Shown here piece after piece: positions 24,550 through 62,900 of a stretch of 64,000 nt of DNA. Position 1 is the first letter of the stretch. Every line of letters begins with the position of its first letter. Origin of the DNA: Lepisosteus oculatus (Eukaryota; Chordata; Actinopteri; Semionotiformes; Lepisosteidae); the NCBI RefSeq assembly GCF_040954835.1, contig NC_090704.1, positions 44,458,979 through 44,522,978 on the forward strand. Direction: 5' to 3'. The position numbers and the translations under genes are program-made. The notes below the pieces were generated by a model, which made no database searches, was not told the origin of the DNA, and saw nothing but the letters and a program-made list of their open reading frames with translations.

Positions 24550-25103
24550 TCAGCAGCAGCCATATCACCCTGCAACTCCCAGTTAGCAGCCTACTGAAGG
24601 TGTGAGCCTGGCCAGTACCTGGATGGGAGACTCCTGGGAAAAAATAAAGTTGCTCCTGGAAGGGGTGTTAGTGTGGCCAGCAGGGGGTGCTCACCCTGAG
24701 GTCCATGTGGGTCCTAATGCCCCACTATAGTGACAGGGATGCTATACTGTAAAAAGGTGCTGTTCTTTGGATGGGACATAAAATTGAGGTCCTGACTCAC
24801 AGGGTGTTTCTCGAGAGGAGTAGGGGCGTTCTGACCTTTTCAACCTATTTTTTTCTGGTCCTTACCAATCATGGCCTCCTAATACTCCCCATCTCTGAAC
24901 TGGCTTCATCACTCTGCTCTCCTCCCCACTGAGAGCTGATGTGTGGTGAGCGTTCTGGCACACTATGGCTGCCATCGCATCATCCAGGTGGGGCTGCACA
25001 CTGGTGGTGGTGGAGGGGAGTCCCCATTACCTGTAAAGCGCTTTGAGTGGAGTCTCCAGAAAAGCGCTATGTAAATGTACGCAACTATTATTATTATTAA
25101 TGA
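24550..25103 (+). mobile_element. 5S-rRNA-headed SINE with L2-like tail
   Basis: The head (catatcaccctgcaactccc ... gtacctggatgggagact) is derived from 5S rRNA including the internal promoter region. The central body contains cagcagggggtgctcaccct, and the tail (cctgtaaagcgctttgagtg ... gcgctatgtaaatgta) is L2-like and ends in (att)n. This architecture is that of SINE3/Deu-type fish SINEs. The copy is nearly full length but diverged. Confidence 0.8.
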
Positions 25104-26887: not shown

Positions 26888-26909
26888 ATGAGGCGAACGG
26901 GATATTCAG
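26888..26909 (+). CDS. SEPTIN9: SEPTIN9 v1-type leader, exon 1
   Basis: Encodes MRRTGYS plus the first base of a Gly codon, then TCAG|gtatgt. Human v1 begins MKKSYSG. The basic pair after Met, the YSG and the start context aaaaATGa fit. Alone it would be too short to call. It is supported by the exon at 41250, which continues the human v1 sequence in the correct phase, and by lying upstream of the v3- and v2-type starts. The v1 N-terminus is reported to matter for nuclear import. Confidence 0.75.
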
Positions 26910-29900
26910 GTATGTCGGATTTTTTTATTGCAACTTTCCCATAAAATCGTTTAACTCTTGGTTGACTTCTGAGAGAGGTAGGAGAGACAAGCTACATGTT
27001 TTTTTTAAAGACGAGTGCTGTACGAACACCAATAATTAGATTTGCTTACCTAATCTACCGTACCAAGCAAATGCAAAAACTCTCCCCCCCTCGCTTCTTC
27101 AGGTGAGTATAAACGGAGGGAAGCCCTACTGTGTGGACACAGTATAAAAATATTGAACAGTTTTGTTAAAACCATTTCTCAACTACAGTTTTCATTAAGT
27201 GTTTTTTGACTGTGATAGTCACAGCACTCTTTACTTTGTGCGTGGAGTTTGGAGGTCTCCTGCCCAGTCCGGTGGAAAAGGGGGTTAATATTTACAGAGA
27301 GGCGCGGACTTCAGCCTTGGAGTAAAATCAGGCGAGTTAAAGTTATCTGACCGTGTGCGGTCTGGTTTCGCACCTCCTGAAGAAATATATAATAAATGTT
27401 TACTATTTTTAGACGGTTAAGTAGCACATACACTGGAACAGAAAGGTAGCGTGTGTATTTTAACGCGAAAGCCACGAACTGAGTCGGAAACTGGGCTTTT
27501 CTTCATGTGGTGTTAGTATTCACAAATGGTTTAACACAAGCACGCCATCAGCGCCACCTTCTTTTCTGCAAAGAATGAAGTACTGTACAGCTGAAAAATG
27601 TAACAGGTCTAAGCATGTTCGACTTATTTTGCTGTTGCTGTGCCTAAGTCATTGTTCGTTAATTTTACGGTTTATGCGGTAGCTTAAGGAACAAACGAAA
27701 GATTTACAAAGTAGAGGAGGCCCGTTTATCCCGTTTGGTAGTTAGTAGCGAATTGATGCAAGAATCATATCCACCCATTTCATGAAAGAATCGAGGGCTC
27801 CAAGGACATGTTTGGGCATATTGTTCCAGACTCCCACAACCCTTTGTGTAAAGAAAGGCCTCCTGTTTTCATTTTTAAAGCGCTTCCACGTAGCTGTAAA
27901 TTAAAAGCCCAATAAAAGGTGATCAGGTAACATTGAAATTGTGGAGACAGTTTTTTAAAGAATAAAGGCCACTGTGTTAAACAGTCTTCTGATCAAAACG
28001 ACAAGGTGTGAAATGTTTCAAAGCCTCTAGTAACAGCAAAACCTGCTGTAAGTGATTTATAGCACTGTTGACAATTTGTTGTAGCAGCAGTTTGCCAGAA
28101 TTTGTGAAATAAGTTGACAAACAAGTTGTCCGGGTTGGAAAGTTCCCTTAATAGTGTGCAGTTTAAAAAAAAAAGTGCAATTATATTCCTATTTTTTTCC
28201 TCTTTGTACAGACCTGTAGTAAAGAACTTCACTGTTTATCTTTAGAAAATCTGAGGTCAACACATCACAGCTCACAAGTGGTCACGCCTGGGCTAACAGA
28301 CTAACACCCAGACTGATACAGTATAAAAATACACACTCGCAGTGCTAAATAATGTTGGGTTAGTGGGTAAAATATCACCTTAAATTATTACAATGATAAA
28401 CACTTTATAGAAATGAGCAAATGTGAACTGTGTTTGGGGTTACCAATAAGTTTTAATATGCAGAAATATTGCCCCCTAAGACACTGATTTATTATTATAC
28501 TGTATTTTTATTGCATGATTGTTTATTAGTTTTTTTTCAATGCTCTGGCCTGGATTGTTCCATTGGAAAAGTGTTACACACAGAGCTGAGCAGTATCTCT
28601 GCTCTGCAGACACACGGTCCTGATTTCCACATTACAGGATACCCATCTATTCTCCTTAAAACAAGGACTAGATTGGCACTGCAGATCGTCCACACGCAGG
28701 GGTTAAACAGATTATGTAGGCCGTTCACCTACCTCATATATGTTTACTTGTAATATATTATTAGTGTATACATGTTTTAATTTCCTCCTGGTTGTTTTTT
28801 CTGCGGTAGGATCTATGTGGTCTGTCTCTCTGCCCAATCCATGATTCTACTGGTTTCTTTTGCATTGCCTGCTCTGCGACTGCATGCACAGGGTGCCATC
28901 TGACAAGTTAAAGAAAGTCACACCGCAGCTATTTCCTGCTCTTCTGAGCAGCAGAGAAGCACCAAAGAGCCTCACTCCAGGGACTATGACTTCTAATCTG
29001 TGGCCATTGTACTAGGTTAACGGTGCGCTTAACAGTGTCCTGCTTGCCGCACGATTGAGCAACCAGGCTGCGGCCGCCTGTGCCCTGCTTCACTGTACAG
29101 CCCTGGCCTTGCCCGAGTCCCCACTGGTCGTGATCCGCGTTTGTCGCCTGTCTGTTTTTCCTCAAAACAAGTTGCAACTCAAAGACGCAGCGCCTGAAGC
29201 CACACTCTTTCTACTCCCCAGTCGATACAGGCTTAACTCCGAGCTTCACAGCAAGGGAGGAAGATCGCCTTCGGTTCTCTCCACATACCGTCGCCACGTG
29301 CCGCTTTCAGACCCATCCAATGTTTTGGAAGCTGCCCCATGTTTGGGCTGGCGTCCTACCCAGGGTGTACCCCACCTTGCGGCCGTTGCTTGCCGGGACA
29401 GGCGCTGGCTCCCCGGTGACCCCAGATTAGAGGTTAGAAAATGGAAGGATAGTTTATCCCAAAGGAATCTAGAGCGTTGCCACCACTGAAGGCCACCACC
29501 CATCCGGGCACTGCGGACCAGCTGGAGGAAGACACTGCTCTTCCTGGACTTTAGGGAGGCCAGATTGTACCAGCCCAGAGGCAGTCAGTCCTTTGAGGTC
29601 ACACACCTGCTGTGATAATCATCTTTATTGATCACGTAGTCAGGACCTCAGTTCAACATCCCTGGGACCATTAAACAAGGTTTATCAGTATCCCTGGTCT
29701 CCACACTGAGGCAGGAGCTTGGAGTTCCAATGCCACCTACTAACAAGCTGGTTCTGCTTAGAGGTGTCCTATCCCAGTACTGCGTGACCTGTGCTGAGCT
29801 TCTGAGTGTGTTGCAACACTGGATGAGCTCAGGAGAAGTTAATTCTCTTAACGTCATTTATTAAAATAAGGCAGATGTTTGCATATTTGCATTCTATTTC

Positions 29901-32900
29901 TCAATGTGTGCATTTTCTTCAGAATTTTACACTGTTCCTATTGTCATGTGATTTGTTTACAGCTTTTTAATCTTATGCAAGCATCTTCCAGAAAATATGT
30001 CTATGGTTTGTGGTTTCAACCTAACTATTTACACTGTCAACCATCAATGAATTAGTGTACAGTATATTTCCCATCCTTTGCTTTCTAGCTGTAGAAAGTG
30101 GTAACTTTCCTAGAGGTTCTTGCTGCAAAACCTTTGATATTGTGCCTCATCTGGTACTGCAGACTCAGCCTTCTTGCTTTCTTCCCTGTAAACCATTACT
30201 TTTTGTAAGTCAATGGTTAACTCACCAAAGAGATAAGTAAACAGGAGGAAAGAGCCTGACCTCACAGGTAGGAGAGATCAAAAGGTATTTATAGATTCTT
30301 TTTGCCTTGCTCAAACCTCTAAAAGCTAACTGCCCAGCTGCTTGGTAAATAAAGTATTTAATAACTAAGGGCACAGACATCTGATTCCCCTGCACTGCAT
30401 GGTATAAACAGCCAATAATAAAATGTCCCCAATGTACAGCACAGTGAAATTGTCATTTTCTCCAGCGCAGGTGTTCTTTTCCTTCCTTCATGCATTAAGG
30501 ACGCTCTTATGCTCAAAGGAGAATTCTCAGCTCCAGCCTTTGGGTGTTCTTTATCAGAAGAAATGGCTTGGATTCCCTTATCGTCCTGATCCCTTTTGGT
30601 TTGCTTTGCTGTGTTTCTGCAGGCAGCCAGCTTGAATTGACCTAAATTTCTGCATAGTCTGTGTTGGAAGCAGAAAACTCCCGTCAGGAGTCACAGGAGA
30701 TTGAGCTGCATTCCCACTTCTTCTTAGTATGATCCAGCAGTTTTTAATGTTGGAATGATTGCGGCAGCTGGTTCTGAGGCGTTTGCCGTTGTGGGAAAGA
30801 GAGTTGAGAGTAGTATAATCCTGGCCTTTTCTTATTCATCATGTTCCTCATGTGGTGTTAAAATGGCCTGTTCCTTTCTTTATGTTTTGATAAAGACCTG
30901 TCTGCTGATATCTGTCCAGCAGACCTGGAAGTGACTGAGGTTTGTGACCCCAGGAGGTTGCAACACTTTCGGCCAACCCCAGCTCTGTTAGAAGAACTGC
31001 GGTTTTGGAGGCGGAGGTCAGACGCATACCTGAGCTCTGTGGTTCATGGGAAAGCAGTACTTGTCAGACCATTCTGTGTAGAGCGTGTTATCAGAAGACC
31101 CCTCTGGAATGCACTGATAATAACCATTTCTGAGAGGTGTGAAGTAATACAGAACTCTTCTACTTGAGGAAAGAAAAATGTTGACATTATCCTAGCAGGG
31201 TCCACACAGGCAGGGGGTATAATTTTACAGACGGTGGAATGAAAGGTCAAGTTTGCCCAATAGTTATTTTTAGTTGTTCCTTTACCAAACCTACTTTTAA
31301 AATTGAAAACCACCCCACCCAGCTCTGAAGAAGGGAAAAACCTATCCCATTCCCGTCTTGGCACCAGTAACAGAAAAAACAAATGAATTTTCTAACGCGT
31401 GTCTTGAGTAAAGCCTCTTCTCTTGAAGGGAGCAATCAGGGTCTTGAGGAGTGACCTGGGATCTGTGATCTGCTCTTGGATAATTGCGCATTGCTGCACA
31501 TGCTTGATCAAAAACCACATAAAACTGGAGTAATTAGTAACTGATTGGCTAATTACCATTATCCTGCTCATAATCGATTGCAGCTGAATGGTTATCCTCA
31601 TCAAGTTTTAACAACTCTTCACCACAAAAAACTAACTTTGGCTACAATGGCCAAATACAGTGCCTGTTCACTTTTCAGATGTTATGGTATTAATTAACTC
31701 CATACAAGGTTTGCACTATCTGGCATCTGATGCAGTGAAAAACATCACTTTAAAAACATAAATGATGAAGGACTAAAGAGCACTGTTTCATACTTATTAT
31801 TAAAACGTCCTTGACAGTTATTTACTTTTGCGGTTGCACTAATTGTTGACTTTCTGTATAGCTATGAGTCAGGAAGGAGACTGTCAGGTATGGTCTTAAT
31901 AATAATAATTAATAATAATTGCTTACACTTATATAGCGCTTTTCTGGACACTCCACTCAAAGCGCTTTACAGGTAATGGGGACTCCCCTCCACCACCACC
32001 AATGTGTAGCATCCACCTGGATGATGCGACAGCAGCCATAGTGCGCCAGAACGCTCCCCACACATCAGCTATCAGTGGGGAGGAGAGCAGAGTGAGGAAG
32101 CCAGTTCATAGAGGGGGATTGTTAGGAGGCCATGATTAGTAAGGGCCAATTGGAAATTTGGCCAGGACACCGGGGTTACACCCCTACTCTTTTCGAGAAG
32201 CGCCCTGGGATTTTTAATGACCACAGAGAGTCAGGACCTCGGTTTTACGTCTCATCCGAAGGACGGCGCCTGTTTACAGTACAGTGTCCCTGTCACTCTA
32301 CTGGGGCATTAGGACCCACACGGACCGCAGGTTGAGCGCCCCCTGCTGGCCCCACTAACACCTCTTCCAGCAGCAGCCTTAGTTTTTCCCAGGAGGTCTC
32401 CCATCCAGGTACTGACCAGGCTCACACCTGCTTAGCTTCTTGTCAGTAGGGAATGCACATCTATAAATCTAGGAGTGACCTCCTGCCATTCAGTTTTTGA
32501 CTGCCCTTTCACAATAATTCACGGCAATGCTGTTAAATTCTCAACTGTAATGAGTCTAATAAAACACGATTGTCTTGATGAATGTAGGGGAAGGGTGATC
32601 TCTTCACTCACAGCCCTGCCCTGCTACTTAAACAGAGATCAGCCTGTCAGGCAAACAAGACTGGGTTAAGTGGGTGAAGAGAAGGGCACTGCTAAGCTTC
32701 CTCTGACTTTATTTGTTCTGCTCAGTCATACAGAATAAATCACACATGCTGTGAAAGGAGTAGGTTTGTTCTCCAATTCAGAAGAGCTTAGTGTTCAACA
32801 GGTTTGTAATGAGGAAGCCTCAGTGAGAAACCAGGCAAGATGGCTTTTTTTTTTTAAGCATTCATTCACGAAGATTGCTATTTCTGCAACAGAGTGTAGA

Positions 32901-35900
32901 CAATGCACTTGGAACATGGTTGTTTTGATAAGGTGTGGATGTCAGTGAGGCTCCCTTGTCCCTGTTAAACCTACATCATGTTCTTCCTGTTAGCCTATGC
33001 AATGCTGTAAGAGCTGGAACCAAATCATTCAACTGATTCAATGTAGACATGGTCACATTTCAGCAGCTGAGATGGAGCTTCAGACTCTTAACAGCAATGA
33101 GGTTCTTCAGGCCTCTAGTTTTGTCAACTGTCTCTGAGAGCAAATGCCAGCAGCTATATCACCCTGCAACACGGAACTGGCAGCCCACTGAAGCTCAGCA
33201 GGTGTGAGCCTATATGGGAGACCTCCTGGGAAAAACTTAAGGTTGCTGCTGGAAGAGGTGTTAGTGGGACCAGTCGAGAATGTTCACCCTGTGGTGTGTT
33301 TGAGTCCTAAGGCCCCAGTATAGTAATGGGGACACTGTAGTGCAATTTCTTCAAAACAGGGGTGATGGTGTGTCCTGGCCGAATTTCCCCCTGGCCTTTA
33401 CCAATAATGGCCTCCTAATAATCCCAGTCTCTGAACTGGCTTCATCACTCTGCTCTCCTCCCCACTGAGAGCTGGTGTGTGGCGTGCAGACTGGTGCACT
33501 ATGGCTGCCGTCGCATCATCCAGGTGGGGCTGCACACTGGTGGTGGTGGAGGGGATCCCCATGACCTGTAAAGCGCTTTGAGTGGAGTGTCCAGAAATAC
33601 TATATGCTATATAAGAGTAAGGAATATAATTATAATAAACGTTTTGTTTCATTGTAAGCCGCCCTGTTTTTCTGCAGCAGTAATCATACTATTTTACCCT
33701 GTTTTGAGAGATCTGGGGCCAGATAAGCGTATCGGATCCAATCGGGGCGAGCGGCTGACTGGACCGTAAGGCCTCTGCCGGGCCCTGAGTGACCGCAGCA
33801 GCAGAGGAACAGATTGAGGTCATTGCTCACACAGCCTTGACGCTGCCTTGCCTGGTTTGCACTGTGCTCAAAGGTGTCACTCGCTAAAGAAGCGGGAAAG
33901 GAAAAAAGAGTACCATTGCCCAAAGCAAACATGTGAATCAGAAATTACCCGTAAAACTGTGTTATTTTCACAGCTGCTTCGTGGACCATTCTTAGAGTGT
34001 GACGTATTTTTTTGCTCTCTTCATGGGATCTTCTGAACTTCTTTTGGACTTCCGTTTGAGTATTTCTTGATACGCGCGGTAGTTCTTCAGAGTACTTCAG
34101 AATATTGTGGACCTCTCCCGTATTTGCAGCCTCTGATGTGCTGAAAGTAAATAGAACTTCTTATGTCTTTGCTGAAGCTGTGTACTCCCACACAGTGATA
34201 ACTGCTGGGATACATCTTGCACTGAAATACCCGAGTAATCAAGACGTTCAGTGCCATCTCCCTGTGTCCCTCTTGTCCGAACAGCAGTGAAGGGAATGAG
34301 AAGGAAGCAGCACTCCTCTTTGCAGACAAGTTTTGAACAATCCATGATTAGACAGGAAAAATCAGATCCTTTTCATATTCTTAATTCTGAATATCTTCTC
34401 TCTAATGTTTTAGGTTTCCCAAACGTAGATCAAATCGATATAAATATTCTTATTTTCCTTATTTGTTAAAACAGTTAAAACAAATAAATGGCAAGGGTAA
34501 ATGCAGTTGTGTCAGTATAAACCAATTATGCTGTAACAAACTATGTATGTGTAATGTGTCATGACTATGTTGTAACAAGTTATGTATGTGCAATGTATTT
34601 AGATGTACAGAAGCACTGTGTCTCCAAAAATTTTCCCCTAGGGGATAATAAAAGTTTAAGTTATCTTATCTTTGCTTCTGATCTTTGTATTTTTGTCAGA
34701 TGTGACCAGTCAAGAAAGGTAACTCTCAGATTTTTAGTGTTAGTGTGTTGAACTCACTGATCCCTTGAAGCAAAGTGCAGGGCAGGCCTAAAAAAATAGT
34801 GGGATACAATTTAGGGCAGCATGAGAGTAAACAATACACCATTCAGCTCATCTGCTGCAGTCATGCCAGTCACACCACGCCCCTGCCACGCCCACTCCCA
34901 CATGGTCCTGCTTCTTTCTTTTTACAGCCCTGGGCTCTGCTACTGTGACAGGGTGGGACTCTCTTCACCTGATCGCATCTAGCCCCTCTCCTCTCTGTCC
35001 AGTGTATCAGTAACAACAGCCTTGAGTCCTTGAAATCTGCAGACTGCTATTAACACCTGTGTTGAAAAAAGCCCGTTCTTAGTAATGACAATCCTTTTTC
35101 ATAAAATATGTTCTTTTATTGCTAAAATTCTGGAATGGATGGTTGCAGCTCAGTTGCAGTTTCATCTTTATCTGAGCCGTTATAATCGCGGTCTGGACAA
35201 GGATGGTGTTGAAACCATCCTTACCACCCTTAGTACTTTTGTCTCTATGTGACTTAATATTCATTTCTATCTGGTCTATAGTACAACTTGTGATATTGTT
35301 ATGCCTATACATGTGTTGGAAAATTGTTTTGGTGTCACTGGTTTTTTGCTTCATTGGTCTGGCTCCTGTGTGGGTAAATCACAGTAAAATCATAGTAAGA
35401 GCATTGTTGATGGCAGACAGGCATTGTTTTAAAAGTGGTACACTGTACCAACTGCAGAACAGCAGTAGAGCAAAGTTAAATGGAACACTTTAAGCTCTTT
35501 GCAAATGCAGGGCTAGTTTACATGCCAAGGCAAGTGCAAAAGACCACTTCTCTGAACTGCCTCTTCTGAGTACACACCTTTTTAAGAAGAACACTAAGGT
35601 GGGTTACTGTAGCCCAGGCGTCTGGAAGTCTTGAGGGGCTGGGCAACTACACCTTTCTCCCCTCTGACCTGCGTAGGTGCAGGCTCAGGAATGCTTTGCC
35701 CAGCCTCCCGGTGTCGCTGAGCTCCTTCCTGTGTGTCCTGTGCTCTGCAGTCTTTGTGTGTGAGCTCAGCTCCCTGGTCTGTGGCTGAGCCTCTCTGTAG
35801 GGATGACTCACGCTGTAATCTCCTGAGAGAAGGACAAGCACATTGCTAATTGAAGGGGGGATCTTCTTAAACAAATATACAGAACAAAACCTTTCAAAAA

Positions 35901-38900: not shown

Positions 38901-41900
38901 TTCATATTGGTTGCTTTCTGCAAAAATCAGTTTTACGTTTTGTGGGGTTTTGGAGGAATCAGCTGGAATACATTCAGTAGTGGGAAGCCCCTCCCCCCAT
39001 ACAGTTTTGTAGTAATCATTCAATCAGAAAGTCTAAATCTCCTGTGTTTTACTCCCCCAGAAATGAATTTGGCTAATGAACGTTTGTCCATTCTCTCTGC
39101 TGGAGCAGTACATGTGTGGAATGTCTGGAAACATTAGTCACCATCACCAGATAAATTATAGGTTGCGTTAGCATACTTACACTGGTATCTTTCTTTTCAT
39201 CTTTCTTTCAATTATGTACTTTAAAAAAGGAGAACTTCCTAGTTTTTTCTGGCTTAGTGTCCTCTTTCCTGAAGTCACAAGGTTTTATTCTTTCTCTGTG
39301 GTTGGAAATGAAATATGACTCAGCCTACAATTTAGACACGTAGCCTATTAAAGATTTAACTTGCACTCCTCTGGTTCTCTATTAGCCTCTGCCTGATGTG
39401 TGTGATATCTGAGAGCTACTTATTACAGTGCCATCAGTGCCAATCATGTGGCAATTGAGGAACAGAAATGTTGACACATCAAGAAACATCTATATCCTCT
39501 TAAATTCACATACCCTTCAGTGAAAAATGGTTAGCACTTAAGAGGGAAAAAAAGGAAGTCTAAAGCTCCTGCCATCATAGAAATTATTTCGAAAACTAAA
39601 CTGACAGCCCTAAAGATGGACTGAAAGCAGAAGAGATTTAGCTAAGTGTGAGAATGTAACTTACACAGATGATTTGTGATGCAAATTAGTCTTGGTGTTA
39701 ACACAGAACAAAGGCTGCTTCTCTTTTTTCTGTTATAAAACATTATCTGTGTCGTAGATAACGAGGCATTGGCTTTGATGCGACATTGCAAGATACAAGA
39801 AAAAAAAAGTTGCAAATTGTAGTTTTGTAGCTGAAAAAAGAAGTCGCGTGCTGCCTTTTAACCACAGTCATGTCCTGCTCAGATGTGTTCACCCCGAACT
39901 GGGGGGCTTATCACCCTCGGTCCACATGTCCTCCGGATGGCAGAACACACACGTCTTTGGAATTGCGGGGCCCAGGATCCGCGGGTGGCTCTGTGGTTCA
40001 GGATCTGCGCCTGTGACTGGAAGGTTGCCGGTTCAAATCCCGTGGCCGGCAGAGGAATCCTACTCCGTTGGGCCCCTGAGCAAGGCCCTTAACCCCAGCT
40101 GCTCCAGGGGCGCCGTATTAAAGGCTGACCCTGTGCTCTGACCCCCAGCTTCTCTCCCTTTCTGTGTGTCTGTGCCTCATGGAGAAAAGCTGGGGTATGC
40201 GAAAAGACGAATTCCTAATGCAAGAAATTGTACAGGGCTAATAAAGAAACATTCACCAAGCGTCCCGTGTCCCTCTGGGAGGTGGCAATGAGCTCGCCTG
40301 CCCGAGCTGGACCTCTGGCCCAGACTGTGCTCCACTCCAGAACAGGGGTGTACTTCCACATCGGCAAGTCATCCGTCAGCGCTGGAGCCCGAAGAGCAGG
40401 GGGTTTCCAAAGCGAGGCGTGTCGTTCTGTTTCGGATGTCTTGTCCTCCTGTCTTCGAGAGGAGAGGAACAAGAGGCAGGGGGGTGGAGAAAGCGTGGAG
40501 GTCTTGCGAAATGTGGTCAGTGTGCTCTTAGGGCTGGATGAAGTAGACTGGAGCTAGAAATGGGAACTGCACCTTAGCTAGAGAGTGAGAAGAAAGGCAC
40601 GATGTGATGCAGAGGGTATCCCACTTGACTGACTCCGCTGTAAGCTTCCTCAGCTGTAATGGGGACCTTATGGTGAGGAAAGATCTAACTACACCTCTGT
40701 GGTCTAGCTGCTAATTAGGAACCTGGAGCCGAAGCAGAGCTGTGCAGTGAGCTACACTGTGGAACAAAGCAAAAAAAGCCTGATCACATTACTTTTAAGT
40801 TTTACTGGGGTTTTCTTTTAATCAGCCTTTCCTTGAAATAAACAAAACAAGACTCTCGGCAGGCTTAGCTGGGGAGATGCCATTCGGAGTGCAGATAGAA
40901 CTCCGCAGTCCAGACGCTGCCAGCACGAGTCTGTCCAACACGACCCACAGGCCAGGGGTGGAAACTGCAGGGAAGTGCCTTTACTCCAGGAGACTGCTTC
41001 CTTGTGAAGGAAGGGTTGTGGGAGTCTGGGACAAGCTACCCACACTGCTTTCAGGGGTCGTCTGGATGCTGTGCATTGAATTGATTAATGTACGCATAAG
41101 CAGGCAAGCCAGATAGGCCAATGTAGTGCAGGTACTGGCAACTGAAGAGTCTGTTGGCTCCATGCTGCAGCTGTCTGCTTTGAAAGCCACAATGTGCTAC
41201 GCACTGGGTGCCAAGATAATATTTGATCTTTCTTCCTTTGAAATTTCAGGAATTGCCAGGACACCAAGCGGAAGGCTCAGGAAAGTGTCGGATCCCACAA
41301 GCCCAAGTAAGTCCTGATTCGACGTCGGCTGAGGTTTTTGTCTTTTGGGGAAATGGCAGAAAAAAAGCAGCACATAGAGCTGTGGTGCTTCACGATACGC
41401 ATCACAGAAGACTGGGGCAAAGCGTGGTAAATGTGCAGTAATAAGCATGGGAAGAGGTAGCGGGGAAAGTAACAGGGCAGATAAAAATCCAGCGCGCTGC
41501 CGGTGTGTGATTTATCCAGGACGGAATTCATCCATCATTCCTTGGGAGGCAGCTGGTGGCAGTGCTTTAAGAATAGCAAAGCCAGCCCAGGCTGGACTCG
41601 TGCACGGATGGGGTGGAATGCTGGCACGAGGCTGCCGTCCGCGGTCACAGCGCACTGCGGAGGCATGCCTTCTGGGGTGGGAAGAGCAAACGTCTTCCTG
41701 CACCATCAGCAGTTCTGTCAGCGAGGCGGGGCGGGGAGTCACGAGCTGGGGCTGTCCAGATGTGAAGCCTGCCCTCCTTTCCCCTTTTCCGTGCACTCAC
41801 ATCTGAAAGACGGACGTCTCCAGCACCGTGTGTCTCGGGCAGTGGTTGGGAACACGCATCCTGTCCCAATCCCACCACGTCTTTAAATAAAGCATTCCGT

Positions 41901-44900: not shown

Positions 44901-47900
44901 GAACAAGTGAGCGAGAGAAGGCAGAGAGAGCGAAAGGGGAAGTCTCCAAAAAAAAATTTGAGGGGAAAAAAAGGCAGACATTACATGTGGCTTCTGGAGG
45001 GTGTGAACTAGTTATGGAGGGAGACAAAATTGCAGGTAGGTTTGTGGAAATTCTTCTTTTCTGAACCTGAGTGGCTGCTTTTCAGGGTTGACGTTTTCTC
45101 TGCTTTATTTTGTCCTTGAGTAATCTGCAGTGGGCAGAGTTCAGCCGCTGCCTGTGTCTCAGACCAGCACACAGTCAGTCTGCATTTTATTTGGCTGCAG
45201 TGTTCAGGCAGACACCAAGCTAACGCACCCTGCCTGCCTGCCTGCCTCTGAACAGCCAGAGAGACTCCCAGGGATTGTTCATTGATCGAGTTTTTACCGG
45301 AGTTTCACACTGAAGCAATTCACGTATTTGGTGACTCCGGGCAGTGTCTGAATTGTACTTAATGGAGTTTTCTTTAACTTCTGCATTGAGTTCAAATAGC
45401 AACGCTGAGTAGGCAGGAAGAGGGCGGCTGTCACATACAGCAGTCTATACATTCCTTTTTTGTATGCCAGTGCATGCTGGTGCACTGTTCATTACTGGCA
45501 TGAAAAAAATTATTTGTAGAAAAGGAGTTGCAGATGAATTTGGTGTTCTGAACTTGCACAGTTGTTTATCGTTGTTATTCATATATATTAGATTGTTTCC
45601 TCTAGTGTTTGAAAGGACAGATTAACTCTACAGCTGTATATGCTTTGTTACACACTTTGGTATACATTTGGTGTAGTTACGCACTGTTGCAAATGTGTAT
45701 ATAAACTGGACTTAATTGGTCATTGTTGGGTTTATGAGAAGAACATTCCACTGCTGCTCAGTGGTTTGAACGCATATGTGCATAGCTGTAAGGCATGCTT
45801 TACTGTAATTGTATGAGTGGTAATAAGTATGTAATGTCCTTTCAAGTCTATGCCACACCTACACTCATTGTTTAATGAAGGATGTGCAGTTCCAAGCAGA
45901 GCAAGCAGCACCAGGTACAATTCAGTCCCCAGTGATCTGGTGCTTCAACAGGGGAAATCAGAAGACAGCCTGTAATCATGGGTGTCCATCCCTGGTTCTG
46001 GAGAACCAGTGTGTCTGCAGGTTTTCTAAGTCTCCGTAAGAGACCTTAATTGGTCAGTCATGAGCTGGTTACGCTTGTGGAGTGCCGATCCACACTAATA
46101 TGAGTGGACCTGAACTGGACATCCCTGCTGTTTCTCTTGGACGGACAGCTGATCGGCCCCCTGCATCAGGACTGTAGTTCAATCCCATCGGACATGGTGG
46201 GATTTCTGACTCATGCTCCTCTTTATTCGTGACTTCCCCTGCAGAGGTTTGGTACTCATGAAGGAGTGACGTGGTGATAACGCTCAGGAGGAGCTGGAAA
46301 GCTGGAAAGATGAAAAATATATTAGTCATGATCAGACGATGCTTAAAAAACGCAGGATAACAAGGGCTAAGGTTTGGTGCAAGAACCATTTTTAATCCTT
46401 TTGGTCACCATGTTGCAAAAAAGGGTGTTGAAGCAGTCACTCCAAAGAAGATCCACTGAATATTTTCCCAGGCTTACAGGAATGTCCTTCACGAAAAGAA
46501 CTGAATCTTCTCGGTGCTCAACAAAGAAGACTGTGAGGGGAACCGATCTAAATGTCCAAAATCCTCTAAGGAATTAACCAAGTCGACTCAATAGACCTTT
46601 TCAGAAAGAACAACCAATCAGGAACCAGAGGGCACAAATGGAAGTGACAGAGAAATGCGTTAAAAACCCAGACCAGGAAGCATTTCTCGACGCAAAGAGT
46701 TGTGGGAGTCTGTGCCAAGCCACCCAGCCATGGTGTTGATGTTGACACCTGGGCGTCTTTCAAGAAGTAGCTTCTGCAGATTGATTCATGGATTATTGAA
46801 GTACTTGTAACCAACAGAGCAAGCAGGGCCAAGCAGCCTTCTCCTTTCTAACACTGTTAAAAGGAATTGAAATTGTGGGGCAGACGTGTAGAGAGAATGC
46901 AAAGAATGTGACTGGAAAAAGGTATAAATCTCTGCACTTCTTGTGTGGGTCTTCCTGTTGTTGTACTGCATTCCCAGCTGTCCTCTGTGACTATAATGGA
47001 TGCCGCTTGTAGCTTTCAGAGACTGGTCTCTGCCTTAAAGCCTTGTGGATATACAGTATCACAGACATTCAATATTACTGTATGGTCATGCCATCCATTA
47101 GAAGTTTATTTCTTTGCTTTTTAATCTTGTTATTATAATGAATAAATGCTAATATCCTAGTCTCTCAGTTCTTAAAGATCTAAAGAACAAAACTATAAAC
47201 TGCTTTTAGTTCTGCATTGGTTTTGTAATTGGTCAAATACAGTAAATTAATGTTCACTCATGCCAGTATTATCAACATTTTCAATACACAGCATGAGAGC
47301 TTCATTACAGTTTACTTATATATTATCGATTTATACCGTTGCCGTCAGCACAGGTTCAAAACAGGTCCCAGTATGAAACCTAATCTCTGAAGAACATGAG
47401 GAGAGGAATGTCAGTAGATTTGTTGGGTTTGTGGCTGTTCTCTTAAGGTGTTCGTTCAGTGCAGAGCATGTATACCTGTTAGACAACAGCAGTGCCTTTT
47501 CTTTGAGTATGTAGTGCAGTGAATTAGTCACAAGGTGCTGCTGTGTGCAGAGACTGACAAGAAAATGGCCTTACTTTGTAAGTCAGTCTTGCCACATCAC
47601 TCTCATTGTCACACACACAATGACTGGCTTATTGCAGTTCTTTCCACATGAGGCCGCCCAACAAGCATAAACTGACTCGTTGCTTTCCTCTGAAATGTTC
47701 ATATCTGTTCTGCACTTTCTCAATGCTAATAGAAGCGACAGATAGGTACCTTTCGATCAGCGGGCTCCGGGTTTCTCTTCCAGCCCACTTCTCATCAGTC
47801 CTTAACAACCTCAGTCACCTCAATACTGGCGTAGTTTTCCCAATTCCAGCGGCTTGTTCCAGCTCGTCAGGTGCTGATGCTTTAAAGAGACCCCAACAAG

Positions 47901-50900: not shown

Positions 50901-50905
50901 GATTC

Positions 50906-50938
<33 letters not shown>

Positions 50939-53900
50939 TGGGCCAATGACGAAGCAGGTGCTTGACAAAAGATTGGTAAAAACTAGGGGGAAATGAGAAA
51001 GCGCTGTACAGATTTCCTGGGGTTAACCCTTCTGGTGGGTGTGTCACAGCCCATCGTGCTCCTGAGCCTTTGCAGAAATGAATCGGATGGCACTGTGGTG
51101 TGTTGGGTAGCACTGCTGCCCCGCAGCTGGAAGGTCCTGGGTCTGATGCTGGGCTCGGATGCCTGTCTGTAAGGAGCCTGCGGAGTTTTCCCTGTGTTCA
51201 TGCAGCTTCGCTCCAGCATCTGTTACCTCGGTGCCTCAGGACGGCTTGTCCTAAACGGGTGTCAGTGAGGAGTACAGGGAGGCCGATCCTGTAACTGTGT
51301 GAGGCCCAGGAGTGGGGCAGGTGGTGTGCCAGAAGCTCCGCCCGTGAGGTTATCGCCAGGCTGAAGAGCTCCTCCACCTGGGCCCTGGACCCTCCAGGGA
51401 CAGGCGCCGGTGCTGTCCGTGTCCTGCGCCGAGCGGGCGGGAGAAGTCAACTCCACCGCGCCTGGAGAGCTGCGTGTGAGGTTGTGCTGCAGGGAGGGAG
51501 GGAGGGTGAGTCACCAGCAGCATGCAGTAGCTCAGTGCCAAGAATCGTATTTATTGCAGTTAACCTTCCCCCAGGTGCCGGCTCCTTGGCCAGGGCTTCG
51601 TTGCCACGATGTGATAAATGTGCCGTAATGTTTTCCTAGTGCTCTGCAGTTATTATTTTAGGTGTATCTTGTTTTGTCCCTCTCTGAGATTCAATAATGT
51701 GGTCATTTCAGGGCATGATTATTATTGTGCCTGGTCTATTTCTGGAAGATCTCTCCAGATGTTGTTTTGGAAAGGGATTACAAACTCAACCCTGAGAGAC
51801 TGCGCTAATCCAAACTGGTGCAGCATGAGTCCTATAAATAAGGAATTGTGGGTTTGAAGGAATTAATGTGGTGATTTTCAATGGGCCAGTTTTCCGCATG
51901 GCTTATAATGTTAAGAAAATGTTGCAAAGAAAAGACCCTTCATGCTGGGACACTGAACTCTTGAAGACGTTGCTCAGGTGATCAACACCTTCTGACTCAC
52001 CGAAGACTGTTCAGCTTCCCTTCTTGACTTCTTTGACAGGTGCTGAACTGACACACAGCTGCTCAACAGTCTTGGACGTCTCAGGCACGATCAGCACCGT
52101 TTCAGGAGACGGCACTGCTAGTCCTACCATTATAACAGCTGTGACTGTTATTAGCACAGCTTAGCTTGGGTGCGAAGAAACAAAGCCTGTCATTTAGTGA
52201 TCTTTCTTTCCCATCGATCAGGATCTTCACAGACCCGATCACAGCAGCTCCGGGTGAGCTGCACATGATCCATCGATGCAAAATGGGTGGCCGTAGTTCC
52301 TTTGACCCACTGACCCAGCAGGTCGAATGGACTCGCTGTCAGGTGTTCCTTTGGAACAGAATCTTTCTAAACACACACAGCGATTTAGCACCTAAGCAGG
52401 TCACTTGTTCAGCGAAGCCCTTTCAGTGGGTTTCTGCAGGCGAACGCCTTGCTTGCAGACAGAGCAGAAATGCGAGACACAGGCGTTTGCTTGTTTGATC
52501 AGAAGACAAGTTAGGAGGGTTTCTAAACTTTTTTATTTTCTAATAAAGGGCTGTGAAAGCGCTTGAAAAGCTGTTTCGTGACCCGTCCCTCCTGCTGGAC
52601 GAGGCTCTCCGGCCTCAGGGCCAGCGCGGGCTGGCGCTGACTGGCGCAGCGAGTGTTGATGCCCACTGCCACTCGTGGACTGCCACTCTGGACTCTCACC
52701 TGCTTCACAGAAGCCCTCACTCCACTTGTCCTCTCGGTTACAGCTGCCATGAGTTTGCCTCGACGTTACCAAGGTCCCCCGATATCACCTGCCAGACCCC
52801 AGTGTTATATTTTGCGATCAGACGTGCAGTTTTATTGGATCGGCCTTGCTGATGTCCGGAGATCGCGGGTGAAATGATTTCAGGATGGCAGTGGGGGCAG
52901 TGACTTTGAAAGACGAGTCTTATCTGACCTTTGATAATGCACAATGCAAGGTGTTTAATAGTGTGCAGTTCTATACACTGTAAAAGCATGGCAGGACTAA
53001 AAAATAAACTCTCGGTGGTGCATGAGTCTTCCGTACGCAGAGCAGACCCATAAACAAGAACATTTAAACATGGTTACAACACAGGCTTGTGATGTGTGAT
53101 GGAGGAGCTGGTCTGCAGAATGACAACTTTACATGTTTTCGTTACTGCTGCTCAGTAAAACAGAATGAATGTGCTATTGAAAGTTTTTTTTGGGTTCTTT
53201 GCATATGGATTCAGCCCATAGAAAACTAAGGGAAAACGGGTAACAAGCGCTGGAGTGAACTTCCACTTTTGGCTTCCTCTGTGTTGTTATTGTAGGACCG
53301 AGGTTTGGAGGAACTGATTCAGCTAAAAGAGAAACAGAAATGGAGGGGCACTTCTGAAGTTCCAAAAGGCAGCATGACGAGCTTTTGTGAAAGAGCGGAG
53401 GGGGGGCGCTCTGAATGTTCGTCCTGTTTGAGGTTCAGATTGAGCCCCCTGAGATCAAGCTCGGTTAACATGCTTTTTTTCAAGGTCATGAACGAACTCT
53501 TTCGCTGCTCGCTGGCCTCGTTAAGTGCGGGGTGTTTAAAAGCTCGCAAGCAAGATGGGCCACATGGCCTGCACTCCTTTCCTATGTCTCAGACGTTCAC
53601 AGTGTCCTCTCTCTCATTCTTAAGTCCTGGAGATATACTATAGCAACTCTCCTTCACCTGCAGCAGTTCTCTTTCACATATTTCTGAAGGACTTGGATTT
53701 TCCCATTTGTCTGCAAATGGAAGCAGGGACTGAGTTCAGAGACCTAATTAGAACTATGCATCTGTAGCTGTATTAAAGACTGCATTTATTTATTATGACT
53801 AATATTCATTCATTCTTTTAGATGTATGATGTTCTTTAATTTAGTGTTAAATGTTAATTCATATATATATATAATGAGTTAAAGATCCCTTAATGATGGG

Positions 53901-56900
53901 CTTTGTTACTTTGCACCCAAGCTAAGCTGTGCTAATAATAGTCACAGCTGTTATAATAGTAAAACTAGCAGTGGAATTTTCTAAACCAGTTCTGTTTGTG
54001 CCCGAGATGTCTAAGCCTGGTGAGCAGCCGTTTGTGTGTTAAGAATTTAAAGAAGAGAAGCTGAACGGGCTTCAGTGAAGGAGCAAATGTATTCCTTGAT
54101 ATGATGATTTGAAATCGGATCTGATAATCATGTCTGGAACGAGAGACAGATTAAATACTGGCTGCGAATGCATGTGTCATGATAGTGAAAATAGTGTACA
54201 ATTTAGCGGAAGGTCACTTGTTCCGGGTGAGATTTGTGACAGTCTGAAGCCCATCTTAGAAGCAGCTGGGCCAATCAGAACGGCAGCCTTGCTGGGGCAC
54301 CAGTTAGGGTTCAGAGCCCACAAATATGCACGCAGGGACAATCTAGAGACAGCAATTCATGTTTCCAGTATGTCTTTGGAAGGTGGGAGGACACCCCCAC
54401 ACAGGGTGAGGGGGAGCAGACGGCACACAGAACCAAACCCAGGACCCGAGAGCTGTGAGCCAGAAGCAGTCCTGCCAGGCCATCATGCCACCCCCTCTTG
54501 GGTCGAACACTCTGTAACAACAGCAAGACTGTCTCATCTGTATTACACGTACAGCATAATATAAGAAAGGGGGAATTGTTTTGACTTACAAACAAGCATG
54601 AGTTAGTAATTATACCTTCATAAAACTGTCTTTGCCTTGAAGTATGGGACAAGTAGATGCCCTGCAGTTTAGTTTGCAGTGCTTTGTTTTTTTTTCTACA
54701 TTTGTGCTACACCTAAAGGAATTCTTGGATTTCATTCCTGTGAACTAACTGCCAAGCCATAATGAAATCTCTGCGCAGTTGTGGGCTGAAGAAACAAGTG
54801 CAGAGCATATGGAGCACAAAATATTAGCCAACGTATTGCAGAAACAACTTGCGAGATCCCAACACATTATCTTACGGAATATGGAGCATTTGCTGGACTC
54901 CCAACATTTTCTTTTCTTATTCCAAAATGAGGGTTTGCACAGTTCTGTGATGCACTCTTGGTGTACACATCAATGGATGTCTCTGCACGAGGCAGGATTA
55001 CTGCACCTCACCAAGTTTATTTACTCAACTTTTATCTCCTTCCCCTCTCTCTCTGTGTCAGAGCTAAGGTCTATTTTGCTGACCGGCTTGCTATTGGGTG
55101 TGATGGGAAAACACTGACTTTTTCCACACCTCAGAGCTCAGCCTGTTCGGGTTCGATTTGGCGTGGAGGTCTGGGACTAATAGCTGTTTCTGACCCCTAG
55201 CAGATGAATCACTGGGCGCCGACACCCGTGGCTGAAACACCAGGTCAAGGAAGCCCAGTTGTTGGCTTCATGCCCTTGGCAATTTCCGAGAAGAACATTT
55301 GGCACCAGTACCAGGCGGGTCCACTGACCCTGTGATGTGAATCTGAAGGCACATACAGTAGGAGGAACATAGGAAAATGGGACTTGAGCCTATTTTTTTC
55401 AGTAAATAGAAGAGATTAAGTGTCTTTGCAGGTTAACACATGCTGAACTGAACTGAAGTATCTACAAGTTGACCCTTTAAAAGGTTTATTATGTTTTGGA
55501 CATTTTTTTTGTTTTAAATTTGCATATACTATATATATATATGTCTGTACAGTATATGTTGGCACTTAATTGCACCTAATTGTGTATTTGTTTTGTTAAA
55601 AAGTCCTGATTACAGTGTACAGGAGCTGATTCTTTTCACTCTTAAAATCCCTAGAGGAAAAAAAAAGTTGGAAAATGCGATCTCGTCCAGAGACGGTGTG
55701 CTGTTTCTGTGAAGCTGTCTGGGCCAGCTCTACGGCGGGTCTGTGGTTAGTCTATGAGGGGTGCTTGATGTGCTCCCCTTGCTTTGAAGACGAGCACGCT
55801 GTGTGTCTCATTTCTGCTTTTCGACAGGATACCCGTTTTTAGCTCTGTCAGTATTGCAACCACACAACCACAGAAAACAGGAAGAAAGAACAACACATTA
55901 AACTGTGTATACGCAGCACTAATTCCTGCCTTTGATATTATCATTTTTTAAACTGTGGTGACTGTGCAAATGTAGGGACATGTTTGTTTTGAGGTTCTGT
56001 GTTGCTTGATAATACCAGGGTTATTTATTTACTCCTTATGGGTGCCCATGTGTGGGGAATACATGCTGCTGTGTCTAAGAGCCTTTGCTGGCTGTGTTGC
56101 CAGGGTCCAGGGTTACTAAGAGGAATTGTTGTGCTGAAGAGGCTCTTCCAATGTTTTTAGCTTCCTGTTATTCCCAGGACAACAGGCGCACTGTGCTGTA
56201 TTTTACTGCTTGTAGAGTAAGGGCACTTTAGGATGTTTTAATAGGAAAAAAATGTAAACACGCAGGATTGCACAACAGAGTATCTTAGGTGAGAAAGCCT
56301 GTGTGAAAACTTATGTTCTTGCAGTTCAGTTTATAAAAGGAAGTCTTTCCTAATTCGCTTTGCCTTCTTCACGTTTTTTGAACCTTATCATGCTGCATTA
56401 TCAAGATCTGTCTTAACCAGGATTGTGTATTCAGTCTGTACTTTCCTTTCTATTTCTGAAGCGTTGATGTGCTGGGGAAAAGCTGACAATAATTATGTGT
56501 GGGCTTTGGCGACCCCTGGTGGTTGACAGAGTAATGTTCATTCGCATTGCTCTCCTAGCGGCAGGTTTAAAATACTCTGTTGCAAAGAACTGTAAAACAT
56601 TGCTTTATACAGCAACAGACGAAGAACAGACGGGTCCTTTATCAACAGGCCCACCAAGCCCAGATTTTTAAGTATGAGCAATGCGTGCTTGTTTGTGTGT
56701 ATGCATTGCACACCCACTCAATTCACCCTGCTTATTGTGTACTGTTCCCTCCCAGCTCTTAAATAGGGAACGGCACATTTACAAAAACACTGAAATCTCT
56801 GAGCTGCACAGTGTATGCGGGGGGTTGTTTTCCCTGCAGGAATGACTCAGTGGTACAGAGTCCCCTGGGGTCCTGTGCTGACAGGAAGCTCATTATAATC

Positions 56901-59900
56901 CGTGGAGGTCGCAGGCCAGGGGGAGAGAGCATGAGGCTCTGCATTTCTGACCTACAGACCTACAGCATGAGATACGCACACACCCTTCCAGAAAGAGAAA
57001 ACAGCACAGCGAACAGCTCTGGAACCCACTGTCTTTCCAAGACGAGCGCAGGGCTCGGGAAGGGTGACTTTATTAGCTTCTCAGTCACAGAAGAAGAGGC
57101 TTCCGAAAACCAGTTTTCCCTTTGATGAGAAGTCCGTTTCCATAAAATCCCTACTTCTTCCCTACGAACAGTTACAGTTACGTCACGCCACGAAAGTCGA
57201 TGATTCTTTTCAAGTCGGGGTATTATGCTTCATCCTCAATCGAGTTGCATCCTAGTTCTTGGAAGGCAGCTGTCTTAAAATAATTCTGCATGGCTCCTTG
57301 CTACTTTAAAAATCACATTCACGTCAAGCTACATATTTCCACAGTGCGTGTTGGTTTCCTTTAGATTGAAACTTAAGGAGGCATTTAGGGGTTACTGTTT
57401 TCTCTCCTGCCAAACACTGCAAGCTAGTCTTAACCATCGTGCTGTGGCTAATATATATATTTACTGTTTTTCTCATGTGACATCAAAGCTCGCAGACCGC
57501 GGTGGGTTTCAGTGCCAGCCTGTCTGCGATAGCGCCTGCTTGTGTTTTCAAGGGAGCACGGCGTGGTGCCACACCTGCCCACTGCGAGTGGCTGAGCCGG
57601 CTGCCTCAGCAGTCGTCATGCCCTCTCTTTTCTGTGCTCCTTATTTCGGACTCGCCAGCTGTGCCACGGCCTGCTCACCGCCTGGGGAAGACTGGACATG
57701 CCCGCCGGTCGGAGTCCTGTGCCGTGGGTGTGCTGTCCGCCTGGTGGACCCCACCCGGGGCTCGGACACGCGTGTGGCACCACAGGGGCAAGTCTTCCTG
57801 CCACCAGCGGCTGAATTTTACCCATTTTGAACTGTGGAGGGCAGATGGTTCCTTAGCGGTTTCCAAGGACAACGTGCAGAGGCAGAGGCAGTAGCTCAAC
57901 AGGGGGCGCTTTGCTTTCAGGGACTGGGGGAAGCAGGTTTTTCAGGTGTCTCTGTCTGCTTCGGTCTAACTGAGGATATAGCAGTCAGTCTTCCTAATTG
58001 TCTGGGAGCCTGAAAACAAGTTGCTATGAAGGCAGGCTGCCTCTTGATGGAAGGTTGCCATGATAAACCAAGGCAAGAGCACTGTAGCGCTGCAGAGCAG
58101 AATAAAATCATCAGAAAAAACATTGAAAGATGTGTCCGACCTTGATAAAACGCACTTCAGTGTGTGGTACATGTAAGGTGAAAACCACAGGAAAAACTGC
58201 AGCATTTCCTGGAAATGCAACATGGTGAAACGTAACGACTTTTAAAGCTGCAATCAGCAGCAGTGAAGAATTTCTTCCTTCAAGTACGGTGGCTGAGCAG
58301 GTGTCCTCTGTGAGACACTGTTACAAGGTGATCATCAGTTAAGGTCACCTCTTCAGTAAATGGTAGCTCAGGATGGGAATGCCTGGACAGTAACTAGCAG
58401 CATGACTATGTGACTTGCCTCCATTACATTTTTTTGGCATGGCCTTGCGATGTAGGCAGCATTATCAACGTCCTCTTGTTCACACCTACCATGAGCTTAA
58501 GATACGCGCTTAACTTTCAGGAAGTCCCCAGGACGTGCGCTTTTACCCTGTACTCTTTTAAAGAAAACTCAGCACCTTAGATGGCGAATTACAGAATACC
58601 GGAGGCTCACTCAGCATCACCCAGATACAGTCCACAGGCCAATGGAAAAGCTGCTGTGTTTATTGTGTCTTGTAATTGTTGATTGTTACCCCATTGTTAA
58701 TGGTGTCGGACTGGTCTGAAGCTCCATGTCTCAAAAAAGAGTCAGTTAAATAAAACCAGTAGCAGTGTTCAGTTGCGAGAACGTCTTGAAAGTCGCTGAA
58801 CTATTACTGTATCGTCTCTAACTCTCTCTGCCAGAACAGGCAGTGCGCTGTCATGTACCCAGAGTGTGTACACACATCTTAAGAGTGGCACTACCTGTAT
58901 ATTTGTCAGCGCCTGCAATTTATGCAATGCCTCGACTGGTCTTTTCTGCTGACATACCAATGGGGACTGTTATCAATACAGCTTAGTTTGGATGAGAAGA
59001 AACCATGTGTGTCATTTAGTGCTGTTGAGTCATGAATTTACATTTCACATTGAACAGAATCGTTAATTCACTACCAGCGCGGGTACTGCAACTCAAGTTA
59101 AACTGTATGTGAGCAGGCAATATGACACATTGCAATGCTAACCCATCACATCCATCTGTCAAATCCAGATGACTCATTGCCAGGTGTTTCTCACCGCTAA
59201 CTTCCTTAGTTCACCTCTACACATCCCTAAAACTAAAACCCTGCTTTTTGTACAATGAAAATATATCTAGACTGACGATCTTTTAGCTTCAATCAAAGGG
59301 AAAGGGAGACCAGGCTGCTGCAGTAAGTGGGATTGGTGGAGCTACTACAGGAGGTGGAGCTCTTCCTTCTGGAGCCGAACTTTTCACAATCGGTGTCCTA
59401 GTATGGTGACGTGGGACACTGTGCCACTGCAGGTCAGATCCTCTGGATGAGGATGTTAAACTGAGCTCCGGTCTACTTGGTGATTAACGATCTTGTTCGT
59501 AGGTAAAGACAGCTCTCCAGCAGTGTAGGGGCTGTTAACCCTGATGTCCTGGCTAAATTCCTGCCCGGTCTTGTACAGCCTGGCCTCCCTGATGTTCCCC
59601 CTTAATTCAACTGGTGAAGCAAGTTCACTCATCTCTACAGTGAAGAGAAGCTGTCAGTGATAGATTACGTAGATCCCTTCATACTGTATATCAGAGGTTC
59701 ATTGGGATCCTTGGAGATTAAAAGTGCTATGCAGATGTAAGCAAATAATATCCAATTGTTCACATCAGGTCTAACTTTGTCTCAATTTCTTTAAACTCCT
59801 TCTTTAAGCTCAAAGTGCTATTTGCTAAACTCATAATGACTCAGTACACCTTCAGTGCACTCGTTCACACACACACTTCCTGTCTTCACCACCTCTAATA

Positions 59901-62900
59901 ATACACACAGCTGATCTCTTTAAGTCTGTTTTCGTAGTTATGATGGGGGAAACAATTACTCCTGCGGTGGTTGAAGAAGGTACGTAAAGCGCTTTGGGAT
60001 GAAAACTGCAAATTACAGCAAATGCACGGAATGAGCATTATTCCTACTGGTCTGAAAAGCAGATCGCTTGGCCGGGACAGGGCACCAGCTGGCCCATTCA
60101 TTCCCAGCGTGAATCTGTGTGCACTGGGCGGGGAGGAGGGGGGTGGGAGAGAGTGTGGCCGTTCCTGCGGGCGTGTGTGTGTGCGCGCGTGTGTGTGTGT
60201 GAGAGAGGAGAGTGGGTGTGATAGAGTTAGAGGGCTTGAAGAGCTGGAGTGCTCTCTGGGACAGTCTGTCCTGTGAAGGGGAGTGAGAGAGGGCGAGAGA
60301 AGGAGGGGGAGGCTGGCGTCTCTCTCCGATTCTGAACTCTCAGAGGCTGCAACGTGAAAAGTGAGAGAGGAAGTGAGAAAACCAGTTGGTCCTTTAAGAA
60401 ACTTCTGTGGGCTTGGATTCTGTAAACCACTACGTGCTTTTTTTGCGTTCGCTCCTAATTTGGGATTTGTTTAAAACCCGGAGGGCTGCGCTGAAACTTT
60501 ACCTTGATTGGGAAGGGATTTCATTACGTACACATTAAAACAAAAGATGTCCGATTCCACTGTGAATGCCCACCTGGAAGGAATTATATCAGACTTTGAA
60601 GGTTGGTCTCTCTTTTCTCCCTTTTTTTACTGTGCTCGTATTTTTTCCTTTACCTTTTTTACCGAATCTGCCTACTTTAGCAAGTTTGGAAGCAAAGCCA
60701 AGCAGTATACTGTACAAGATCACAAAATGGGGAAGTGAACCAGTGAGAGACACTGCAGGCAGATCACGTTTGGGTAGTTCTGAATGAGCCTATTTCATTT
60801 GACTGTTTAACTCTTTTAGCAGCATAACCAAGTGAATTCCCTTCTAATGAAATGTGCTTTTGATTTCTTTTGTCTTTATAACCTGTGTGCTGTCTTTCTG
60901 TTTGCCTTCTGTCCCTGTGGTTTTACAGTAGAATGGGCTACAGACTTCTGAGGTCAGACTCGGACTGGGACTGTAGAGTGAGGCAGGAAATCTCTGTGCA
61001 CAGAGACATGAGACTCTTTTAAAGGGTAAAGCTGCTGACTAAGTTGCAGGCAATGGCTTATCATTTCACTTCCTTCGCTCCTCAGATTTAGTTTTGCTTT
61101 GTTTCAACTTCAGCAGTTTTGTTTTGGCCATCTCCTCTCACACCCTTACTTATCTCTCTGTGGCTAGTGACAGTTGCAGGCACCTCTCTTATAATACTTC
61201 CAGGGCAGTTCTTCTACTGAAGACCTCTTATTTTGAATAACTCGTTTCGTCCGACCATGTTGAATTTGTCAAGTGTGTTCCATTATGTGTTAACGGTCTT
61301 TAATGATGATTTCAATGTCATCGTTAATTGTTTGTTAATAGGCACCAAGCAGCGGCTTGAATATTGAATGGAGGGATTTATTTATTATAAACCGATTTAA
61401 GATGTGGGTTCTGCTGCGGTTCATGGAAGGTGTTGATCTTTCTCCCCACTATGTAACAGGCACAGGCTTCATATAAAAAATAAAATGGGCCGTATCAGAG
61501 GCCAAATCACTCTTACTTGTGAAATAACAAGGAGACAGTGCGCACATTCATGTATGCTGTGTATGTAGGATAGGCTGCAGGAACCCGTGCACGTCCTTTG
61601 AGTGAACCTCTTCTGGTGTTTAAAGAAAAGGGCGCAGTGAAAAAAGTCCGGTTTGCAATAGCAAAGGATGGGACCTGCTTCTGTTCATCCAGAAAGCACG
61701 CGAGGCCCTTTGAAGGCCCACACTAGTATAACACAAACCCCTACATATGTATAAAGTAGTTTGGGCATTCATTTAATTTTTCACCAGTTGCACTTAGAAG
61801 TAATATGAGGATGACTTTACTAGCTGCATCAAACTCCTCCAATGTTGTCTGTTGGAAACCGATAGGAACAGTTCTAAAGAAGTGATGGAAACGTGTCCCA
61901 GCCCAGCAGGACTGTGAGCGTTACTGTGATGGAGCAAAGGTATCTAGATGTCTGGAGCCTGGAAGTAAGCCAGTGAGTGCTGTCATTTCACTCCTGCAGT
62001 CCAGCGGCTGCATTCATTTTTTATATCCACTCTTACTTTATATTTTAATAGGGACGCTGTGCTGTTCTGGCTGAGAGAAGCCGTGTGCATTTCAAAAGGT
62101 TCCGCTAATTTCTTTTGTCAACTCATATTTCTTTAAAATATTGGTAGTTGGCCGCACTGTTCTGGGCCGATGCAGAGAAGCAGAGGCTGAGACACTGCAG
62201 CTTTCAAATGAGACGAGGGCGTTTGGGCTGGAAAAAGGAAATTCCAGGGAAAGCACAAATTCTGCGGGTGCAGAAAATGTCTGGGTAGACAGATCGCGCG
62301 TTTCACTGCCTGGCCTCTTTTAAAGCACTCGTAGAAGAAGCAGGCCCCTGTCAGTTAACTCCCTCTGTGACAGGGTCACCAGCTCTGTTTAGCATAGGTC
62401 TTTTCGAAGGCTTCCCTGCATCACTTCGACAGCTGGGAAAGACAGTTTTCACAAAACAAAGAAGGGAACTGCATGTGGAAACAGTTTGGAGTTTGTTTGG
62501 GGATTAGAGGCAGCTGCAGTTGTGCCTCAGATACTATTAAGAAGATTTGTTTGCAGTGTTTGTGTGCTGTAGTTTTAAAGTATGTTGTTATCTGTAAAAT
62601 ATCTTTATGTCATATATAGTATGTATCTAGATTTCATACCTAAGAGTCAGTAATTTGCATCATAGACAAAGACAGATAGAAATACAATAAGAGTTTTATC
62701 GATTTTGCATCAGGTATTATATGCTTTGAATATGAAAACATGTTCTTTTCAGAGACTCAGTAATACCGCAGGATATTTACTGGAGCAATCTGTGCTGCCG
62801 GTCTTAGGTGACTATCCATTGTTCTACAATGCTGCCAGCAACCCCATTAATCCAGAATAATACCTTTATAGTTTAATGGCAGCTGTGTGTGTGTAGCAGC

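Follow-up and report, generated by a model that had tools for sequence, protein, structure and literature searches.

Three alternative N-terminal leaders of septin 9 and their common downstream body in the spotted gar genome

The locus examined here, a 64 kb stretch of spotted gar (Lepisosteus oculatus) DNA hereafter called the window (contig C9, 44458979-44522978, + strand), raises the question of whether a fish septin 9 gene (SEPTIN9, or SEPT9) carries the v1, v3 and v2 N-terminal leaders of its human counterpart, each spliced onto the same downstream coding sequence. A sequence-only reading of the window had proposed such leaders, all ending in phase 1 and arranged in the human order. The pieces, of which the coding stretches were read from the sequence and translated, are the following.

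26888-26909, + strand: v1 leader, coding portion of exon 1; MRRTGYS plus one nucleotide, donor GTATGT
41250-41306, + strand: v1 leader exon 2; split Gly, then IARTPSGRLRKVSDPTSP plus one nucleotide, acceptor TTTCAG, donor GTAAGT
45014-45035, + strand: v3 leader, seven codons; MEGDKIA plus one nucleotide, donor GTAGGT
60547-60601, + strand: v2 leader, 18 codons; MSDSTVNAHLEGIISDFE plus one nucleotide, donor GTTGGT
60602-64000, + strand: start of the putative intron between the v2 donor and the common exon, based on the downstream exon model

Leaders and a common septin-9 body

The donors at 26909, 41306, 45035 and 60601 proved base-exact, and translation had every leader ending in phase 1 on a GT. 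The septin body was sought inside the window without any convincing match (best E-value 2.8). A genome profile search (1.2 Gb, 813 contigs) placed septin matches that exceed the family cut-off on the + strand of the same contig, at 44567467-44576289, starting about 44.5 kb past the window end; in the controls for this search, 6 of 14 genomes gave matches and none of the 14 gave one over the cut-off. The sequence examined also extended 20 kb before the window and 70 kb beyond it. A query with a provisional human SEPT9 sequence matched from window-equivalent position 70944 (ALKRSFEVEEVDSSTHSSVPPRR..., 51% identity over 232 columns, E-value 1.1e-54), with further matches continuing to approximately 120208.

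The sequence-only reading had predicted a common exon starting with an ALKRSFEV-like sequence beyond position 64000, and this exon was found at window-equivalent 70945-71607 on the + strand, 6.9 kb past the window end, with a phase-1 CAG acceptor. Its ALKRSFEV opening is shared with human SEPT9 (17q25). The exon is preceded by TTTTTCAG, and its first two bases, CA, complete the split codon, giving GCA (Ala) after v2 and v3 and ACA (Thr) after v1, where human SEPT9 has Ala. A septin-9 body is thus located downstream on the + strand of contig C9, and the leader matches, together with the continuation of each frame into this body, bear out the proposed septin-9 leaders v1, v3 and v2.

An exon model comprising the common exon and nine further exons yielded frames of 592 (v1), 584 (v2) and 573 (v3) residues containing only the terminal stop, with 407, 410 and 400 residues, respectively, identical to that human SEPT9 sequence. 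The GTPase part matched the Pfam Septin family (1.2e-112), and its three best matches in PDB were to Septin-9 (542.7-550 bits), followed by septin-3 (487.3) and septin-12 (429.4 at best). In exon 4 (window-equivalent 102975-103166), the sequence MADPSRDAG keeps the internal Met of the human 335-residue form, which starts with MADTPRDAG, while Met165, the start of the human 422-residue form, is not kept in the modelled gar frames.

These data indicate that the window is almost certainly the 5' half of a fish SEPTIN9 with three starts, whose leaders would each join a single common exon in phase 1. The three starts of transcription, spaced 18 and 15.5 kb from one to the next, would each give a different short leader, probably from separate promoters, and the choice of start would set the N-terminal tag (v1, v2 or v3, the latter being nearly no tag) on an otherwise identical protein.

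Individual leaders and chance expectation

Upstream of each of the putative start codons an in-frame stop was identified (at 26642 for v1, 44900 for v3 and 60505 for v2), with no intervening in-frame ATG. To gauge what the leaders owe to chance, the human leaders were compared with one strand of 300 dinucleotide-shuffled versions of the window. The v2 leader, acidic and 18 residues long, with 14 residues identical to those of human v2, scored 69 in the window, and no match of at least 40 was obtained in the shuffles. The v1 leader is basic and 26 residues long, with 12 identical residues among its 26 columns aligned to human v1 and an intact SGRLR. Its second exon, placed between AG and GT, scored 45, with one match of at least 25 in the 300 shuffles, and among the 4007 GTs of the window the donors of v1 exons 1 and 2 rank in the top 0.3% and 0.32%. 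For the v3 heptamer, combined with an ATG and an in-phase GT, the observed score of 21 was reached or exceeded by three matches in the 300 shuffles. Its support hence comes from its length, phase and donor (top 0.15%) in combination with its letters.

A scan for candidate leaders across 26501-70944 (an ATG, 5 to 40 codons, a phase-1 donor scoring at least 5 and a purine at -3) returned seven rows on the + strand and one on the - strand. The + rows comprised v1 exon 1, v3, the second v1 exon when started at an ATG ahead of it, 50498 (MWVSEGGT), 56252, which contains a stop and is not a valid candidate, and the overlapping 59940 and 59943. The v2 leader is missing from this list because of its donor score of 1.41. 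A separate observation in this region is the 13-codon ATG stretch at 59940-59979 on the + strand (MMGETITPAVVEE), which has a strong phase-1 donor and lies 607 bases upstream of v2; its use would be conjectural. An Rfam scan of the window at gathering scores produced no matches.

Several observations weigh against a gene with three starts, among them those on v1 exon 1. Allowing one inserted residue, this exon scores 16, a value expected 0.74 times per shuffled strand; without gaps it scores 5, which each of 60 shuffles reaches about nine times on average. When all six frames are scanned freely, with neither an ATG nor a donor required, it is also absent from the best matches listed, and the v3 heptamer (21) ranks second on the + strand after an unrelated match scoring 23. 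On its own letters v1 exon 1 is not significant, and its assignment therefore rests on context. The v2 donor, GTTGGT, is weak, falling in the top 4.7% of the window's GTs. Furthermore, the human letters in all leader comparisons are provisional: three human leader strings were not found in the literature, and queries of solved structures with the leader peptides returned no SEPT9 chain and one unrelated weak match (E-value 0.94). Downstream, the exon model was assembled manually on the basis of sequence similarity and splice signals, and exon 4 admits an alternative acceptor, a CAG lying three bases before the modelled TAG, that would add one residue.

The CpG profile adds to these points. The observed/expected CpG ratio in 1-kb windows averages 0.49 (standard deviation 0.19), and its highest values, up to 1.2, fall within the first 8 kb, near no leader. 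Around v3 the ratio ranges from 0.26 to 0.56 with no rise, and the 0.72 in the 400-base bin directly upstream of v2 is a local rise only. Around v1 it is 0.66-1.07 across the 400-base bins that span -800 to +800. This is suggestive of a raised profile at the v1 start, with nothing firm for the v2 and v3 starts.

The poor score of v1 exon 1 is what one would expect if the leaders were chance look-alikes, that is, short open stretches before a GT in long introns, unrelated to septin 9. The v2 leader and v1 exon 2, however, lie far outside the shuffle scores, and the four pieces follow one another in the correct order, on the strand that also bears a septin-9 body into which each of their frames runs on through an acceptor of the common phase, which makes chance resemblance exceedingly improbable. 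A second alternative is that the leaders do derive from septin 9, but that some of them are relics kept by chance and unused as first exons. This would apply above all to v3, which shares only four of seven residues with the human leader and is embedded in CpG-poor sequence. Against it stand the length and phase of v3 and a donor among the strongest in the window, as well as the transcription of a seven-residue tv3 in zebrafish reported in PMC2873287, and we consider the relic explanation very unlikely. The residues kept in the three leaders (14 of 18 in v2, 12 of 26 columns in v1, 4 of 7 in v3) are in line with v3 acting as a near-empty tag.

Comparison with zebrafish and human septin 9

Landsverk et al. 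(2010, PMC2873287) report that zebrafish sept9a uses alternate 5' exons to make homologues of the human v1, v2 and v3 transcripts. Their distinctive N-termini comprise 32 (tv1), 18 (tv2) and 7 (tv3) residues, and there is also a 10-residue tv-alpha. The v2 and v3 leaders in the gar are equal in length to those of zebrafish, whereas the v1 leader differs (26 versus 32 residues). No tv-alpha-like leader of 10 codons, with a donor of at least 3 and a purine at -3, was detected in 26501-70944, a cut-off that the v2 donor itself fails.

The exon boundaries provide further points of comparison. The zebrafish exon 2 start, as implied by the published morpholino MO2 against the acceptor of that exon, reads GCATCGCA against GAATTGCC in the gar, with five of eight bases equal; the three differences all fall on third codon positions and both sequences read G-I-A. 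The exon 5 start, from morpholino MO5, reads GTCAGAG in zebrafish and GACAGAG here (six of seven bases, same phase, both encoding G-Q). The agreement of these two exon starts indicates that the exon numbering matches that of zebrafish sept9a. The pattern of internal Met residues, with the 335-residue form kept and the 422-residue form lost, is likewise the one reported there for zebrafish (PMC2873287).

For human SEPT9, PMC5364497 describes three long isoforms that differ by N-termini derived from alternative first exons. According to Wasserkort et al. (2013, PMC3837632), amplicon 2 is in the CpG island CGI2, where v1 starts. The tv-3 region of Connolly et al. is located approximately 3 kb upstream of their amplicon 3, and CGI3, which holds the tv-2 start, contains amplicons 4 to 6. 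Assuming that amplicons are numbered along the gene, the human order would be v1-v3-v2, and the order in the gar sequence agrees with it. PMC5364497 assigns the v1 and v2 first exons to CpG islands and describes the v3 surroundings as CpG-enriched, and in PMC3837632 the tv-3 region is termed CpG-poor. The gar locus differs from these human descriptions in that CpG is clearly raised only at v1. In mouse, the Sept9 gene is reported to have promoters 1a-1d (PMC5898269).

According to PMC13174562, the first ~25 residues of SEPT9 contain microtubule-binding motifs, and the gar v1 tag aligns with the human region said to bear them. The human tags have been associated with distinct behaviors, with i1 directed to microtubules and actin, i3 to actin, and i2 disturbing actin-associated filaments (PMC5364497). 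By analogy, the fish tags may steer septin filaments as the human tags do.

The sequence-only reading had further argued that conservation of seven-codon exons between fish and mammals implies long-term selection on promoter choice, and that pipelines usually miss exons of 22 bp. The leaders are indeed retained, and this attests to selection on the peptides but not by itself on promoter choice, for which selection may be surmised from their retention. The figure of 22 bp is correct, but it covers just the translated portion of first exons, which must include 5' untranslated sequence as well, so the remark on missed exons was overstated. Fish-mammal conservation of the leaders has been in print since 2010, and the case described here adds one more orthologue. 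Our literature search found no publication on sept9 in spotted gar, nor any treating septin and SEPT9 isoforms together with teleost orthologs.

Copy number and neighbouring features

We surveyed septin copies by grouping 83 profile matches by eye into 13 septin loci, leaving out matches on contigs C2 and C14, and by reading about 10 kb at each of the 12 other septin loci (20 kb at the one on C12), some of which were seen in part. Septin 9 was represented by one of the 13 loci examined. No second septin-9 GTPase was identified among the 12 others, the nearest being those on C12 (67% identity over 270 residues) and C19 (71% over 188). From these sequence comparisons, septin 9 is likely to be single-copy in this genome.

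Zebrafish possesses a second gene, sept9b (PMC2873287), and of the two zebrafish copies only sept9a has long isoforms. A proposal that we regard as evenly poised is that a single gar septin-9 gene holds all the leaders, that the three-tag layout predates the teleost duplication, that sept9b lost its leaders by division of labour, and that the v2 tag, better conserved than the other two, represents an ancient signal for binding and not the mere absence of the v1 tag. If the gene is single-copy with all three leaders, it would offer a clean reference for the promoters and tags of the ancestor. In humans, methylation of the CpG island at the v2 start serves as a marker of colorectal cancer (PMC3837632), and hereditary neuralgic amyotrophy results from mutations in SEPT9 (PMC2873287). 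An N-terminal switch of relevance to human disease is confirmed in another fish, apparently one with a single septin-9 gene.

On contig C14, 14 septin-profile matches restricted to the first 75 profile positions were observed between 35.26 and 36.96 Mb, on both strands and in frames of 266-1287 residues. This cluster is probably an expanded family of other, GIMAP-like GTPases.

Upstream of septin 9, the window contains an immunoglobulin V-set domain at 9539-9979 on the + strand (Pfam V-set 1.1e-6), with T-cell antigen CD7 as its best match among solved structures (E-value 1.4e-6) and with a hydrophobic stretch, noted on visual inspection, near 10807-11091. By sequence similarity, this is probably a CD7-like receptor gene; human CD7 is also on 17q25. 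A 222-base partial copy of this V domain, 96% identical, is present at 3451-3672 (+ strand), and the open stretch at 3457-3789 matched no Pfam family. The copy is perhaps a partial duplication and may be a pseudogene. In addition, two repeat pairs were detected, 24855-25024 with 33391-33560 (90% identity) and 6302-6426 with 24420-24544 (96%), and these dispersed pairs are perhaps mobile elements.

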